This document shows positions 32,248 through 39,290 of a stretch of 64,000 bases of DNA, piece by piece. The stretch is from Treponema sp. (lineage in GTDB: Bacteria > Spirochaetota > Spirochaetia > Treponematales > Treponemataceae), in the NCBI GenBank assembly GCA_017934745.1, contig JAGBIY010000010.1, positions 49,491-113,490 of the forward strand. Direction: 5' to 3'. Position numbers and translations under genes: made by a program. The notes under the pieces were generated by a model. That model was not told the origin of the DNA, did not search any database, and saw only the letters and a list, made by a program, of their open reading frames with translations. The stretch's first letter is position 1, and each line of letters begins with the position of its first letter.

Positions 32248-32520
32248 TCAATCGCCCTCAAGCATTTTCTGAATTTCAGATTCGGGCATTCCCAACTTGA
32301 CCGAGGCATCCTTTACCGAAAGCAAATTCGACTTTATCAAATCAATATACGCATCGACTTTCCCCTGCTGAAGTCCCTGCTGAAGCCCTTGCTGTAGTCC
32401 TTGCTGAAGTCCTTGCTGTAGCCCCTGCTCGGTCGCACGTTTCCGCAAATCACGCTCGTGGAGATTTATCGCGAGATACTCGTTTATGAACGTGTTCTGG
32501 AATTTTTTTGTCTGTACCAT
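32248..32520 (-). CDS. Candidate internal product (90-aa C-terminal Rpn fragment)
   Basis: In-frame ATG at 32520 is preceded by AAGGAG (32535-32530) with a 9-nt gap, a better ribosome-binding site than many real starts here. It would give a 90-residue protein beginning MVQTKKFQNTF that contains the QGLQ repeats and C-terminal helices but no nuclease residues. RpnA-type genes of E. coli are reported to make a small inhibitor from such an internal start. Expression is unproven. Confidence 0.45.
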   Translation of the reverse strand: MVQTKKFQNTFINEYLAINLHERDLRKRATEQGLQQGLQQGLQQGLQQGLQQGKVDAYIDLIKSNLLSVKDASVKLGMPESEIQKMLEGD

Positions 32521-33099
32521 GGTCTCAATCTCCTTCGTAAAATTGGAATCTGCTGAATTTCCGCGGACAAAAGACAGAAAAGCCTTTATTCCGGGATTGT
32601 CTTCTTTGTTGTAGGCTGCGCAGTTGAAAATCAGGTGGTGGGTCTGGTCGTTCAAGTCGACATCCGCCTTTTCCTTGCATTTCCGCTCGAACGTGTACAA
32701 CGGAAGATCCTTCCCGAACGGGTCGTTCAGACAGATGAAGATGATGTAACTCTCCTTCAATTCCGAATAGTCGGCTCCCTTCAACAGGCTGTCCACGTCC
32801 AGCATCGACTGGTAATAGCGGGTCCGCTTGCCGATTGTCTCAATCTTGTACGACTGGATTTCAACGTCGAATATCTTGTCGCTGCCGGCCACATACACGT
32901 CCAAACGGACCCCCTTCGTGTTGTAGTACGGGCTTATGGTCTTCTGCAGTTCAGGATAATCTATGTGGTCTATCTTTATCCCAAGCAAAAGCTCAATTAC
33001 CCCTTTGCAAATTTCAGGCTCGTGCATCACCGCTCCGAACATGAAATCGTCCGCGAAAACCAAATCCTCAATCGGCTTGAAACTGTAACTTCTCTCCAT
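32248..33099 (-). CDS. Rpn/PD-(D/E)XK nuclease family protein 1, with Q-G-L-Q repeats and an internal start
   Basis: 283 aa. The N-terminus (SFKPIEDLVFADDFMFGAVM) and catalytic strand RLDVYVAGSDKIFDVEIQ (D...E-x-Q) place it in the PDDEXK_2/Rpn recombination-promoting nuclease group. The C-terminal third has a 4-residue repeat (QGLQ x5, residues about 225-245) from a 12-bp DNA repeat near 32364-32430. A second ATG at 32520 with an ideal AAGGAG site lies inside the gene. AAAGGG precedes the main ATG. Related gene at 34956-35894. Confidence 0.85.
   Translation of the reverse strand: MERSYSFKPIEDLVFADDFMFGAVMHEPEICKGVIELLLGIKIDHIDYPELQKTISPYYNTKGVRLDVYVAGSDKIFDVEIQSYKIETIGKRTRYYQSMLDVDSLLKGADYSELKESYIIFICLNDPFGKDLPLYTFERKCKEKADVDLNDQTHHLIFNCAAYNKEDNPGIKAFLSFVRGNSADSNFTKEIETMVQTKKFQNTFINEYLAINLHERDLRKRATEQGLQQGLQQGLQQGLQQGLQQGKVDAYIDLIKSNLLSVKDASVKLGMPESEIQKMLEGD
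32364..32430 (-). repeat. 12-bp in-frame tandem repeat in Rpn gene 1
   Basis: About five imperfect copies of a 12-bp unit (plus-strand CTTGCTGAAGTC-like, with GTAG/GAAG variants), encoding Gln-Gly-Leu-Gln. A change in copy number would lengthen or shorten the linker without a frameshift. Confidence 0.75.
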
Positions 33100-34955: not shown

Positions 34956-35894
34956 ATGAAAAAAATTGAATTCGACACAGAGAATCCTACGGCGGACGAG
35001 CTTGCGTACATAGAATCGCACAAGGGAAAAATCCTGAACCCAAGGCTCGACAGTACGTTCAAGGCGATTTTCACGCAGCCGACGGACGAGTCAAGAATTG
35101 CGCTGCACGATTTCTTGGAAGCGGCAATCGGAGAGGACATCGCCGATGTCAGCTTTGAGCCGAACGATGCCGTTCAGGATTTCGCAGGGCAAAGGGATGT
35201 TGACTACGACATAAACGTCCATTTTTCCACAGGCGAAGCCGCAGAGATAGAAATGCAGGCGTGGCAACAGAAATACGACTTTGGGAAGCGCGCGGAATAC
35301 CAAGCGGCGAGGCTGCTGGGCGCATACCTCAACAAGGGGGAGTCGTGGGGCAGCGTCAAAAAAGTCTACCAAATCTCCATTTTGGACTATAATTACAAAC
35401 AGGAGAGCGATGCCGACAAGGAAAACGATTCCGTGCTGACTCGGTACACGATGAAAGGAGAGCGCGGAGAGAGACTTGCCGACAGACTGAACGTAATCTT
35501 CATCGAACTCACAAAACTCGGCTCGGCGAAGAAGTACTCGAAAAACGAAATCGCGAAACTGACGAAAGCGGAAAAGTGGGCGCTGTTCTTCAAGAAAGCC
35601 GACAACTCCAGATCGTCGGGCATCGTCAACGAAATAGCGAAAACGGAGGTCGGAATCATGAACGCGCAGAAAGTTTTATCATCAATCAGCAGCGACAGGG
35701 CGTTGCTTCTCGCCCAATACCACGCAGAAGTCCGCGAGCGCGACATGCTCTCGAACATCGAAGGAAGCTTCAAGCAAGGTGTCTCAAAGGGAATCGATGA
35801 ACTCGAACAGCTTCTTGATTCGGGAATGTCATTGAAAGAGGCTATAAAAAAAGTGAGGGAGCAAAATGCTTGCCGAGGTCCGAGTGAGTCCTAG
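34956..35894 (+). CDS. Rpn/PD-(D/E)XK nuclease family protein 2, with internal start
   Basis: 312 aa. The family N-terminus NPRLDSTFKAIFTQP and catalytic region DVDYDINVHFSTGEAAEIEMQ (D...E-x-Q) mark a PDDEXK_2/Rpn protein; the C-terminus (FKQGVSKGIDELEQLLDSG) is the usual helical tail. Divergently transcribed from lipoprotein A. Its last five to seven codons and stop come from the repeat array that begins near 35878. An internal ATG at 35658 carries a GGAGG site. Confidence 0.85.
   Translation: MKKIEFDTENPTADELAYIESHKGKILNPRLDSTFKAIFTQPTDESRIALHDFLEAAIGEDIADVSFEPNDAVQDFAGQRDVDYDINVHFSTGEAAEIEMQAWQQKYDFGKRAEYQAARLLGAYLNKGESWGSVKKVYQISILDYNYKQESDADKENDSVLTRYTMKGERGERLADRLNVIFIELTKLGSAKKYSKNEIAKLTKAEKWALFFKKADNSRSSGIVNEIAKTEVGIMNAQKVLSSISSDRALLLAQYHAEVRERDMLSNIEGSFKQGVSKGIDELEQLLDSGMSLKEAIKKVREQNACRGPSES
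35658..35894 (+). CDS. Candidate internal product (78-aa C-terminal Rpn fragment)
   Basis: In-frame ATG at 35658 preceded by GGAGG (35645-35649) at 8-nt spacing. The product (MNAQKVLSSISSD... to the natural stop) lacks the nuclease core. The same arrangement occurs in the other Rpn gene of this window, which argues against chance, but expression is untested. Confidence 0.45.
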   Translation: MNAQKVLSSISSDRALLLAQYHAEVRERDMLSNIEGSFKQGVSKGIDELEQLLDSGMSLKEAIKKVREQNACRGPSES

Positions 35895-36367: not shown

Positions 36368-37228
36368 ATGAAACTTTCAAAAAAAGTACTCGCTGCAATG
36401 TCTGCTTCAGCATTGCTCTTGACTGCTGGAATCTTCACATCATGTGGAGAAGAAGATGATGATCCAGAAGGAGCTATCACTGGTTCAAACAACAAATACA
36501 CTTTGTCTTACACAAACTCAAGCACTACTGACACTTACAGATGCTACAATTCAACAACAGCTAAGCATCGTGGTGCTATGGCTGTAATCACATTGAACAA
36601 AGACGGAACTTCTGGTTCTGGTGCTGCAATGGGATTCATCTGGGACTTGCACACAACAGATGCAAGTGCAAGTGCTGAGGAAGTCGCTCGCGAAGTTTCT
36701 TCTAGCCCAAGGTCACTTTGCATTGTAGCATTCGCAAACAATAATGGTACGTTTAAACCTTACGTTTCTCGCTTCACAAACGTTTATGACCTTCAGGCAA
36801 AAAATTTTGGTACTGATGGTGTAACAGTAAACGGTGCAGAGCAGAAAGCTGTTGAGAAAGAATACATCGGCTGGACATCTACATCAGAGAAAGACACCTC
36901 CCCATTGACAGCGGATGCAAATGGCAACTATGTCATGACCGTAAATGTTTACCCAGAATTTAACACTGAGAATGAAACGACAACTTACACTGGTGGATAT
37001 GTCGTAGACATCTACAATGGTGCCCTCACAAAAGCTGAAGTGGAGAGTGGAGAAAAAACAGCTGATCTCACGACAACAATTAGTGCAGAGGACCTTGGAT
37101 ATGAAGCAGGTTCAAAACCAACTCAGCAGACAAATGCTGTCTATGCGAATGTTTACACATCAAGCTCAGCTTCTGGAACTTGGCAGTATCTCGATACTTA
37201 CTCAGCTGCCGAAGCTGTTGAGGAGTAA
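36368..37228 (+). CDS. Surface/periplasmic lipoprotein, paralogue B
   Basis: 286 aa. Lipoprotein signal (MKLSKKVLAAMSASALL, lipobox GIFTSC) almost the same as paralogue A, then an acidic tether (GEEDDDPEGA) and a T/S/Y/N-rich beta-type domain of unknown function. The two share signal peptide, leader element and Glu-Glu end (VEE), but little of the central sequence. Codon use is again unlike neighbours (AAC/ACA/TCA/GCA). Followed by its own terminator. Confidence 0.75.
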   Translation: MKLSKKVLAAMSASALLLTAGIFTSCGEEDDDPEGAITGSNNKYTLSYTNSSTTDTYRCYNSTTAKHRGAMAVITLNKDGTSGSGAAMGFIWDLHTTDASASAEEVAREVSSSPRSLCIVAFANNNGTFKPYVSRFTNVYDLQAKNFGTDGVTVNGAEQKAVEKEYIGWTSTSEKDTSPLTADANGNYVMTVNVYPEFNTENETTTYTGGYVVDIYNGALTKAEVESGEKTADLTTTISAEDLGYEAGSKPTQQTNAVYANVYTSSSASGTWQYLDTYSAAEAVEE

Positions 37229-37275
37229 CCACTGATTGACGTTGTTCGGGAGAGTAATCTTCAGGACAGGTCGCT

Positions 37276-37326
37276 CTAATCAAAAGAAAAGCGCACCGGG
37301 ACGAACGGCTCTCGGTGCGCTTTTTT
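37276..37326 (+). terminator. Terminator of lipoprotein B
   Basis: Stem AAGCGCACCG / CGGTGCGCTT with an 11-12-nt loop region, followed by six T. Confidence 0.85.
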
Positions 37327-37399
37327 GTCACCCGCACCGCAAGCAACGTCTCTAAAATTCCGCTCTGAAAACACCGAAAATTCTAAATGCGCAGTCATA

Positions 37400-37463
37400 G
37401 GGAGAAATCCCGAAGGAAACTGGCGGTTGCTCTTCAAAGCTCACCGATGTTGAAAAACGTCGG
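37400..37463 (+). promoter_or_regulatory. Conserved structured leader of module A (same in B at 37815-37878)
   Basis: Two GAAA-capped hairpins: GGGA-GAAA-TCCC (37400-37411) and CCGATGTT-GAAA-AACGTCGG (37444-37463). Both lie in sequence unchanged between the copies. They precede the GGAGGG site by about 12 nt. Could be a regulatory RNA domain or antisense target; I could not match it to a known riboswitch. Confidence 0.5.
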
Positions 37464-37486
37464 AATTTACTTCTGGAGGGCGTGCA

Positions 37487-37555
37487 ATGACAGCAAGAAT
37501 CGTATTTACAATTGCGATTGTCTGCTTTTTCTTGGCAGGCTATATTGCTTGGTAG
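37487..37555 (+). CDS. 22-aa hydrophobic peptide, module A (type I toxin-like)
   Basis: ATG at 37487 behind GGAGGG (6-nt gap). The peptide starts MTARI, is hydrophobic throughout its middle and ends LAGYIAW; it is one membrane helix long. Module B encodes a homologue; of 13 changed codons (stop codon included), seven are synonymous and the rest exchange hydrophobic residues or T for I. That pattern suggests selection on the protein. Small hydrophobic peptides in tandem copies with long leaders are typical of type I toxins (Ibs, Ldr), but no antisense RNA has been identified. Confidence 0.6.
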   Translation: MTARIVFTIAIVCFFLAGYIAW

Positions 37556-37591
37556 TTGCACTCTTCTTGCAATCTTGTAAGGAGTAAAAGG

Positions 37592-37624
37592 AAAGCCGCC
37601 TAAGTCTTTGCTTGGCGGCTTTTT
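37592..37624 (+). terminator. Terminator of module A
   Basis: AAAGCCGCC / GGCGGCTTTTT with a 14-nt loop. In module B the outer G-C pair is an A-T pair, a compensatory change that supports a real RNA stem. Confidence 0.8.
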
Positions 37625-37655
37625 CGCAATCAATCGAAGACCAACCGAGTTTCTT

Positions 37656-37676
37656 GGAAACGTTAGCAGCGTTTCC
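37656..37676. promoter_or_regulatory. Conserved stem downstream of module A terminator
   Basis: GGAAACG/CGTTTCC. The module B equivalent (38070-38089) is GGAAATG/CATTTCC, so one C-G pair has become T-A. The stem is therefore probably transcribed, either by read-through or from the opposite strand. Confidence 0.5.
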
Positions 37677-37901
37677 GTGGCTGTGCTTCTTTTTTACTAT
37701 ATCGGAAAATCATCAAAAAATCCACAATCTCAATCGGACTTTTCACCCGCACCGCAACCAACGTCTCTAAAATTCCTCTCCGAAAACGCCGAAAATTTAA
37801 ACTGCGCAGTCATAGGGAGAAATCCCGAAGGAAACTGGCGGTTGCTCTTCAAAGCTCACCGATGTTGAAAAACGTCGGAATTTACTTCTGGAGGGCGTGC
37901 A

Positions 37902-37970
37902 ATGACAGCAAGAATCATTTTGATTTTGGCTATCGTCTGCCTCTTTTTGGCGGGCTACATAGCCTGGTAA
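37902..37970 (+). CDS. 22-aa hydrophobic peptide, module B (type I toxin-like)
   Basis: Second copy: ATG at 37902 with the same GGAGGG site; starts MTARI, ends LAGYIAW, and its central part has more Leu/Ile than copy A. The stop codon also differs (TAA versus TAG). See module A for reasoning. An alternative role as a small membrane-protein subunit or regulator (KdpF- or CydX-like) cannot be excluded. Confidence 0.6.
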   Translation: MTARIILILAIVCLFLAGYIAW

Positions 37971-38008
37971 ATTGCACACTCTCTTGCGTTGATGTAGGAG
38001 AGTAAAAG

Positions 38009-38040
38009 AAAACCGCCTAAGTCTTTGCTTGGCGGTTTTT
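38009..38040 (+). terminator. Terminator of module B
   Basis: AACCGCC / GGCGGTT stem with the same 14-base loop as module A and five T. Confidence 0.8.
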
Positions 38041-38242
38041 CACCCAAAACGAAGACAACCGTGTTTCTTGGAAATGTTGACGCATTTCCGTGGCTGTGCT
38101 TCTTTTTTACTATATCGGAAAATCCTCAAAAAATCCACACCGAATCCAGGGCAACAGGATGCGCAAGAATGCACGAGTCTCCGCGGCATGATTTTTTCAA
38201 ACGGCATTTTCTCAACTTGTGGCAAATTCCTTTGATAATACA

Positions 38243-38248
38243 TAGAAT
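38243..38248 (+). promoter_or_regulatory. -10 element giving a leaderless thioredoxin-fold lipoprotein transcript
   Basis: TAGAAT ends 7 nt before the ATG at 38256; no ribosome-binding site. A second possible hexamer, GATAAT, lies 10 bp upstream. Confidence 0.45.
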
Positions 38249-38255
38249 CATTTAT

Positions 38256-39290
38256 ATGAAGAAAATATTTGTTTTTATTGCGGCGTTTTTTGCCGTGGTG
38301 TTTTTCAATTCTTGTTCACAGAAAAAATGGATTTCGAATTTTGACGAAGGGAAGAAGCTGGCGGAGAAGAGCGGCAAGGGCATTTTCCTCGACTTCTGCG
38401 CGGAGACGGACGAAGTTTCCGAGAGGCTTGAGAAGAGCGGCTTCGGAAGCGCGGATTTCATCAAGAAATTCGGGAACGACCTCGTGTTCGTAAAGCTGGA
38501 TTTGACGGACAGGCTAAACGCCGAGAACCTGAACCCGGACGCAAGCGAGGAGGAGCGAGCGGCGGCCGAGAAGACAATCAAGGAGACGGAGAAGTCGGTG
38601 GAGCTGGCGGAGAAATACGCGGTCAGGACGCTTCCGTCGATGTTCGTGCTCACAAAAGAAGGGTATGTCGTTTCCGCACTGGAATTCTATTCGGTGAGGG
38701 AAGATTTCGACCCGAACAGAAAAGACGCGGACACAGCTCCGTTCGATGAAATCATAAAGGTCGACGGAGAGGACGAATTCACAAAGAAGATGGACGACGC
38801 AATCGTGCTCCTTAAGGACTTCGACAGCAACATGAAAATCGCGATGTCGGACGGAAGCGTGAAGGACAGGGTGGCCGCGGTGGATGAAATTTTCGACAGC
38901 ACAGATTTCGTCTACAGATACCTCATCAAGGAATTGAGCGCGCTCGTCGTGGAAATCGACAAGGAAAACGTGTCCGGTTCGGTTCCGCGGCACACCATGG
39001 CTTTGGCATCGGCGGAAGCGGTGGATGCGGGCGACGATTTTTCCAAAGTCGCGAAAATTTTCGAGAGCGCAGCGGAAAGGAAATTCCTGACGGGTGACGA
39101 CAAGCAGCTTCTCTATTATCAGGCGGCGCTCGCTTCGATGAAAGTCAAGGACTACGTGAACGCGAAAAAGGACGTGCAAAAATCCATAGACGCGTCTCCC
39201 CAAAGCGAGCAGATTTTCCTTTTGAACGCGATGATAGAAAACATCGAGAGTCTCGCGAAAAACGAAAGCGAGCAAAACAATCAAAATTAG
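38256..39290 (+). CDS. Thioredoxin-fold lipoprotein lacking CxxC
   Basis: 344 aa. Lipoprotein signal with lipobox FFNSC (about residue 20). Residues 25-150 resemble the thioredoxin/DsbD-gamma fold (GKGIFLDFCAETDEV, NDLVFVKLDLTD, cis-Pro loop VRTLPSMFVLTKEGYV), but the redox CxxC is replaced by CAETD, so disulfide chemistry is unlikely. The C-terminal half is helical and TPR-like (YYQAALASMKVKDYVNAKKDVQKSI). Probably a periplasmic scaffold or chaperone. Confidence 0.75.
   Translation: MKKIFVFIAAFFAVVFFNSCSQKKWISNFDEGKKLAEKSGKGIFLDFCAETDEVSERLEKSGFGSADFIKKFGNDLVFVKLDLTDRLNAENLNPDASEEERAAAEKTIKETEKSVELAEKYAVRTLPSMFVLTKEGYVVSALEFYSVREDFDPNRKDADTAPFDEIIKVDGEDEFTKKMDDAIVLLKDFDSNMKIAMSDGSVKDRVAAVDEIFDSTDFVYRYLIKELSALVVEIDKENVSGSVPRHTMALASAEAVDAGDDFSKVAKIFESAAERKFLTGDDKQLLYYQAALASMKVKDYVNAKKDVQKSIDASPQSEQIFLLNAMIENIESLAKNESEQNNQN

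Follow-up and report, generated by a model that had tools for sequence, protein, structure and literature searches.

Tandem modules and their hydrophobic peptides

The window, that is, the whole 64,000-nt stretch of Treponema sp. DNA that we analyzed, carries two tandem 415-bp modules at 37.33 to 38.15 kb, as the original prediction had described. They form direct repeats 415 bp apart (D1 of 230 nt with 90% identity, and D2, D3, and D5 further downstream). The parts that it assigned to each module, namely a leader, the Shine-Dalgarno (SD) sequence GGAGGG, a 22-codon hydrophobic ORF, and stems, are all present in the sequence, and so are the GAAA-capped hairpins GGGA-GAAA-TCCC and CGATGTT-GAAA-AACGTCG, with the leader hairpin of module 1 at 37444-37463 (+ strand). 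By eye, the leader is identical between the copies over 114 nt (37388-37501 and 37803-37916). The ORFs differ in 13 of 23 codons, stop included; seven differences are synonymous and five are replacements. The earlier statement that the replacements preserve hydrophobicity holds for V/I, F/L, I/L, and F/L, but not for T/I, which involves one threonine. Compensatory changes, G-C to A-T in the terminator and C-G to T-A in the downstream stem, could likewise be recognized by eye. The interval proposed at the outset ends just beyond the predicted antisense promoter of module 2 (38109-38137). Further upstream, the ORFs at 32248-33099 (- strand) and 34956-35894 (+ strand) presumably belong to the PD-(D/E)XK/Rpn-type nuclease family, judging by eye, and the former has a QGLQ repeat tail.

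The toxin-like ORFs encode MTARIVFTIAIVCFFLAGYIAW in module 1 (37487-37555, + strand) and MTARIILILAIVCLFLAGYIAW in module 2 (37902-37970, + strand). We represented the family by two sequence-only models, R1 for the toxin half and R2 for the half with the stems T1 and T2 and the promoter. In a search of Treponema genomes, which the original prediction had proposed as a check, R1 matched 60 places spread over 12 of the 201 genus genomes, and 49 of these matches contain a readable peptide ORF (including two exact duplicates and one ORF shortened to 15 aa). The pN/pS ratio was 0.33 in frame against 1.19 and 0.92 in the two shifted frames, as calculated from 26 distinct 22-aa ORFs in 197 nonindependent pairs. 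Judged by these substitution patterns, the toxin-like ORF is under coding selection.

Family peptides are 21 to 23 aa long and highly variable in sequence, and they keep, with few exceptions, one plan: a basic residue, about 12 to 14 mostly hydrophobic residues, and a C-terminal G-[YF]-x-x-[WF]. The hydrophobic run suggests a membrane location. A Pfam profile search with both window peptides gave no match, PF16935 (Hol_Tox, cut-off 23.3 bits) included. Searches of a defence library with four peptides and of solved structures with one peptide gave no match either.

Predictions of mRNA closure and of a convergent antisense unit

Two stems follow the ORF. T1 (CCGCC...GGCGG) lies at 37593-37624 in module 1, with T-rich flanks on either strand, and at 38010-38041 in module 2. 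T2 (GAAGACCAACC...GGCTGTGCTTC) together with a T-run occupies 37636-37696 and 38051-38109, and would form both the 3′ end of the predicted mRNA and the 5′ hairpin of a predicted antisense RNA. The predicted mRNAs fold with −127.0 and −126.8 kcal/mol (z −7.4 and −9.7, from 100 dinucleotide shuffles each). Since both outfold their shuffles and 12 of the 201 genus genomes contain the module, the modules are not a product of chance.

Three long-range helices, LDI-1, LDI-2, and the SD helix, are predicted within the mRNA. LDI-1 (8-9 bp) joins the mRNA 5′ end to the 3′ arm of T2: the predicted 5′ end of module 1 (GCGCAGTCA, 37389-37397, + strand) pairs with 37678-37686, and the corresponding strand of module 2 (37804-37812, + strand) with 38091-38099. 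Its letter pairs co-change across the family (GCACAGUC/GGCUGUGC, GCGCGACC/GGUUGCGC, GUGCGGCCG/CGGUCGCAC, GUGCAACUA/UAGUUGCAC, and GGCGCAAUC/GAUUGCGUC). Cognate strands reach −17.65 kcal/mol versus −13.61 kcal/mol for non-cognate ones, and 0 of 50,000 permutations was as good, with 43 modules reduced to 20 representatives, including G013:C16, G028:C73, and G167:C59. LDI-2 (12-13 bp) joins the leader element CGGUUGGUCUUC to the T2 5′ arm GAAGACCAACCG. In module 1, CGGTTGCTCTTC (37424-37435, + strand) pairs with 37636-37647 around an internal C-C mismatch, and in module 2, 37839-37850 (+ strand) pairs with 38051-38061. A mismatch at the inner pair occurs in seven of 17 sequences, the window's included. 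This helix is mostly invariant, the exception being a clean double exchange within one subfamily, and it therefore offers little covariation of its own (two covarying pairs). The permutation of matched pairing gave p 0.063, short of significance (20 of 21 representatives, one, G013:C16, with a misplaced leader).

The SD helix pairs the SD sequence and the start codon with bases at and 3′ of the stop codon. In module 1, the stretch from GGAGGG through the spacer to the start codon (37475-37489, + strand) pairs with 37554-37567, a pairing that RNAalifold also returns; the anti-SD proper (37556-37567, + strand) directly follows the stop codon. In module 2, the SD stretch is at 37890-37904 and the anti-SD, again directly 3′ of the stop, at 37971-37985 (both + strand); the latter (module G000:C61:87327) is in the scored SD-pairing set. 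That set consists of 45 of the 49 modules, two duplicates and two modules whose flanks are short having been removed, and 21 representatives with <85% identity were taken from it. Their cognate pairing averaged −15.6 kcal/mol versus −14.7 kcal/mol for non-cognate (p 0.008) and −10.9 kcal/mol for shuffled partners. The helix is weak in G028:C40, whose −9.8 kcal/mol is no improvement on the shuffled mean.

In an alignment of 17 modules, 93.4% of the cells in the four named helices are paired. Fourteen of 38 pairs are altered on both sides, versus 6.5 in shuffles, with 0 of 500 shuffles as high and slid versions giving 0 to 4; this shuffle control ignores the relatedness of the sequences. The alignment covers 17 of 20 sequences. 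The other three agree less closely with the model or show decay: the leader of G013:C16 is replaced by a different hairpin, no 5′ end was recognized in G028:C73, and the ORF of G167:C59 has 15 aa. An unguided RNAalifold run recovered LDI-1, LDI-2, and six SD pairs. The mRNA is thus predicted to be closed on itself, with its SD sequence hidden. A short ORF behind a long, structured leader might also be read as a cis-regulatory RNA, that is, a riboswitch or a leader peptide acting on a downstream gene. We consider this highly improbable, since the unit has a terminal stem and T-run of its own, its helices connect its own two ends, and the window gave nothing at gathering level in Rfam. The five weak sub-gathering Rfam matches in 37200-38250 were judged to be chance.

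The original prediction had left a regulatory RNA still to be found. We now predict an antisense unit that is convergent with the toxin gene and lies over its 3′ UTR. On the opposite strand, to the right of T2, a −10 box and a −35-like box stand 17 bp apart: TGGATT (37719-37724) and TATAGT (37696-37701) in module 1 (37696-37724, - strand), and the same two hexamers at the same spacing in module 2 (38109-38137, - strand). From this promoter to the reverse terminator at T1, the predicted antisense RNA of module 1, a putative antitoxin, would span about 105 nt (37583-37690, - strand); its counterpart in module 2 would span 38000-38104 (- strand). The A-rich stretch of the + strand to the left of T1 (37584-37594 in module 1) would be the T-rich terminator tail of the antisense RNA, and the T-run to the right of T2 serves the predicted mRNA. 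With these tails, each RNA would end in the first hairpin of the other, with an overlap of about 100 nt. The reverse promoter and terminator enclose T1 and T2 only, so the conserved antisense unit appears restricted to the 3′ UTR.

For the promoter test, 58 of the 62 R2 matches were parsed (in four, the script did not recognize the T2 3′ arm), leaving 34 nonredundant modules. The best −10 hexamer had at most one mismatch in 29 of the 34, against 31.6% of shuffles. In 29 modules, the −10 box lies 11 to 14 nt from T2 with a recognizable −35-like box at exactly 17 bp; in the remaining five, the script chose a hexamer at another place. Among 48 intact-ORF modules with enough sequence, 47 possess the T2 arm and the antisense promoter (37 TGGATT-like and 10 TTGACA-like), at a score attained by 3.3% of shuffles; the sole exception, G068:C7:22967, has a weaker −10 box. 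Two −35 classes can be distinguished, TGGATT in most modules and TTGACA/TTGACG at the same position in others (G152, G000:C71:29962, G037, G144:C4, G000:C13, and, by eye, G028:C9). We take the replacement of TGGATT by TTGACA/TTGACG at the same place as the strongest sign that the element is really a promoter. TGGATT was both defined in and scored on the same family, which is circular, and the −10 box and the TTGACA class are free of this circularity. The usual −35-like element, TGTGGATTTTTT (37719-37725 and homologues), is strongly conserved and unlike TTGACA, and could also be a protein site.

Several R2 copies are without an intact peptide ORF, some of them with inserted palindromes. The antisense promoter was present in 16 of 16 such places that were scored, a count that is partly by construction because the R2 model contains the promoter. 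These 16 include two modules with exchanged cargo, one 15-aa ORF, and two places where no ORF was read, and contig ends truncate some of the copies. Loss thus looks one-sided in the sequences, the peptide ORF disappearing and the antisense side being kept. Short palindromic repeats of the GCGAGTTTTGCTTCGCAAAACTC type were seen within the toxin ORF or the T2 loop at G167:C81:1708-1856, G047:C95, and G047:C66.

Upstream of many modules, we recognized by eye a conserved and unusual box, TNAA-N16-NCCGAWAAT, as a putative toxin promoter (37353-37381, TAAA ... CCGAAAAT, in module 1 and 37768-37796 in module 2, both + strand, and homologues). It resembles the sigma-28 consensus. Control by sigma-28 was considered and found no support: the strict pattern occurs four times in the own genome versus six times in the reversed control, the four sites precede genes that are non-flagellar by eye, and the box is not clear in the 170 nt upstream of flagellin-like ORFs.

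Distribution of the family and exchange of its cargo

Beside the R1 matches described above, R2 gave 62 matches in 10 of the 201 genus genomes. R1 matches number 11 in G000, the window's own genome, 10 in G167, 9 in G096, and 8 in G028. A DNA search of the window's own genome gave 11 matches, some of which are fragments of one module. The R1 matches in G101:C2, G132, and G106 (20 to 22 bits) are without an R2 match and were treated as chance. Since 189 of the 201 genus genomes are without an R1 match, the family is patchy. Extending R1 to 275 genomes of the taxonomic family gave 13 genomes, the added one being G272 from another genus, and four of 393 phylum genomes matched R2, each within the same taxonomic family. 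The exact leader-SD pattern was found in 14 stretches of named genomes, from T. saccharophilum DSM 2985 and uncultured Treponema (ruminants and other samples). It found no match in IMG/VR, and module 1 had none in the phage and plasmid collections searched.

Copies that are dispersed, tandem, and fragmentary could suggest a small mobile repeat of the MITE type with an incidental ORF. Purifying selection in frame, compensatory changes in the helices, and the lack of any inverted repeat of at least 20 nt in 36500-39200 make that very improbable. Near several modules (L009, L010, and L012), we noted by eye a dispersed repeat whose core resembles AGCAATGCTTAGAACACA...GCAGCGTTC.

In G272 (locus L152), two tandem modules share the common promoter, leader, T2, and antisense promoter (TTGACG, 17 bp, TATATT). 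One carries MKKIVIVLILAIIIFLLGYPAF, a peptide of the window's type, and the other carries MTLYEIISLVISIAMLIIALLTYLKK, which matches PF16935 (Hol_Tox) with 30.3 bits. LDI-1 and LDI-2 fold in both modules, with different letters. A third cargo, MDLMLCIAVVSCLASVVSAIVAVLSYLKK, without a Pfam match above cut-off, sits on the same leader and antisense unit in G152 and G068, which belong to the window's own group. In G000:C71:75828 and G000:C3:58474 (L012 and L011), a similar insert of about 180 nt (AGCTTGCCAAGGTCC...GCAGCAT) replaces the ORF, and 3′ of it lies an apparent end of the third cargo (..SYLKK).

Among the 275 genomes, 14 have a Hol_Tox match, nine of them above cut-off. We examined duplexes between leader and 3′ UTR at nine of the 14 Hol_Tox loci (four of eight Hol_Tox loci read are below the Pfam cut-off) and at L161, which matches R2 but encodes a peptide that Hol_Tox does not match. 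Nine of the ten loci were readable and gave −42 to −62 kcal/mol, values that include promoter sequence and stand without a shuffle control. The scan for an antisense promoter scored one with a 17-bp spacing and two mismatches in L161, L163, and L174, one with a 16-bp spacing in L168, and one with three mismatches in L164 and L170; none was scored in L172, L173, and L175, the last of which ends at a contig edge. Of the five further Hol_Tox loci, L166, L167, and L169 look different. By comparison of the sequences, the shared chassis is firm for Hol_Tox in G272 and likely in other Hol_Tox loci. Because the same chassis can carry Hol_Tox, toxin and RNA switch may be regarded as separable parts.

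One-helix membrane peptides are common, and the modules might encode a small regulatory or structural peptide of this kind (KdpF-like), under elaborate RNA control and without toxicity. NCBIfam profiles echo this idea far below their cut-offs (Ecr-type small membrane protein, 18.3 against 33 bits; KdpF, 12 against 56 bits). The many copies per genome argue against it, and so do the substitution of Hol_Tox for the peptide on the G272 chassis and the maintenance of the antisense unit in copies without a peptide ORF. We regard a non-toxin role as unlikely.

Relation to known type I systems

The proposal of a candidate new type I toxin-like system fits the general sequence tests for this type, with a small hydrophobic peptide, a predicted antisense gene, and a probably hidden SD sequence. 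The toxins of txpA/RatA and bsrG/SR4 in B. subtilis are of the Hol_Tox type, and the G272 Hol_Tox peptide on the chassis of a window-type peptide is one likeness to them. Convergent genes, an antisense RNA over the mRNA 3′ end, and a ribosome-binding site (RBS) held in a helix are further likenesses; for B. subtilis type I systems, PMC6562991 and PMC4147584 describe overlap at the 3′ end together with RNase III and sequestration of the RBS. In contrast to these toxins, the window peptide has 22 aa, no charged C-terminus, and no Hol_Tox match, and the family differs further in its mRNA, predicted to be closed by LDI-1 and LDI-2, and in its spirochete host.

The Ibs peptides, to which the original prediction had likened the modules, have a C-terminus of the SFPTY type. 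The comparison stands for peptide shape, as both are tiny and combine a single basic residue with a hydrophobic stretch and an aromatic C-terminus (GYPAW/GYPAF in the family), but it fails for layout. Sib runs antisense across the ibs ORF and its RBS (PMC4147584), whereas the conserved antisense unit of the family lies over the 3′ UTR only. With the Ibs_toxin profile PF13956, two of 20 family members match at all, and the best reaches 16.2 bits against a cut-off of 27. Given this score and the layout, membership in Ibs/Sib was rejected. The C-terminal residue of IbsC is described as uncharged in the part of PMC8309996 concerned.

The 5′-3′ closure of the mRNA, here by prediction and covariation, recalls aapA/IsoA of H. 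pylori and hok/Sok. In the text of PMC6733600 relevant here, the full-length aapA mRNA is untranslatable through a 5′-3′ long-distance interaction and an anti-SD, and several aapA copies exist per chromosome. The family differs in that the SD partner lies just 3′ of the stop codon and the 5′-3′ helix excludes the SD itself. Rfam and Pfam, the two collections in which a sequence relation was sought, gave no match above cut-off for the modules of the window.

The Fst peptide of par/Fst (E. faecalis pAD1) is, by eye, presumably unrelated to the window peptide. The systems resemble each other in convergent RNAs that overlap at their 3′ ends and share a terminator, as outlined in a section of PMC4147584. 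A type I pair whose antisense RNA also blocks the leader, as in par/Fst, would be compatible with our best explanation. The leader motif GGTTGCTCTTC resembles the T2 3′ arm, and the antisense 5′ end could therefore pair with the leader; over 19 of 21 representatives (two had no recognized leader motif), matched duplexes reached −33.1 versus −31.6 kcal/mol for mismatched ones (permutation p 0.031). In contrast to par/Fst, this pairing lacks clear support in the family: one of the 19 was at p < 0.05 against dinucleotide shuffles of the leader (mean z −0.8), and the letter changes of one subfamily (GGTTAGCCTTC/GAAGGCTAACC) agree with pairing in cis. Such additional blocking of the leader has, in our opinion, a small but real chance.

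Each module is, very probably, a complete type I toxin-antitoxin locus. Our best reading is a spirochete type I family in which an exchangeable, putatively toxic peptide sits on a conserved RNA switch. Selection on the ORF, the covarying helices, the layout of promoters and terminators, and the exchange of peptides are read in the sequences themselves; from them we infer transcription, toxicity, a role of RNase III, and a trigger. The + strand would yield an mRNA of about 305 nt that encodes the putative toxin, a membrane peptide of 22 residues with a single helix. The new mRNA would be shut by pairing of its 5′ with its 3′ end, of the leader with the last stem, and of the SD sequence and start codon with the stop region. 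An antisense RNA of about 105 nt, starting just right of T2 and ending at T1, would complement the last 100 nt of the mRNA, and the resulting duplex would probably expose the mRNA to RNase III, in the manner of RatA. Synthesis of the toxin would require both a drop in the antisense RNA and an opening of the mRNA, for instance by 3′ trimming. The peptide would then insert in the membrane and halt growth.

Annotation commonly overlooks ORFs this short, and members of the family may therefore have escaped notice in genomes already sequenced. Type I systems are stated to be known only in Proteobacteria, Firmicutes, and Tenericutes, with Cyanobacteria added in 2025, in the part of PMC12390103 that deals with their range. 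Our literature search, over titles and abstract openings of open-licence papers, found no spirochete type I system. If our reading is true, a multi-copy Treponema family, with a copy in the culture-collection strain T. saccharophilum DSM 2985, would add Spirochaetota to this range. Covariation for the closed-mRNA fold was obtained here without probing. Furthermore, a natural exchange of toxins on one RNA switch lets one ask which part evolution retains. On the boldest reading, which we hold to be somewhat more likely than not, classification would go by the RNA switch and not by the toxin.
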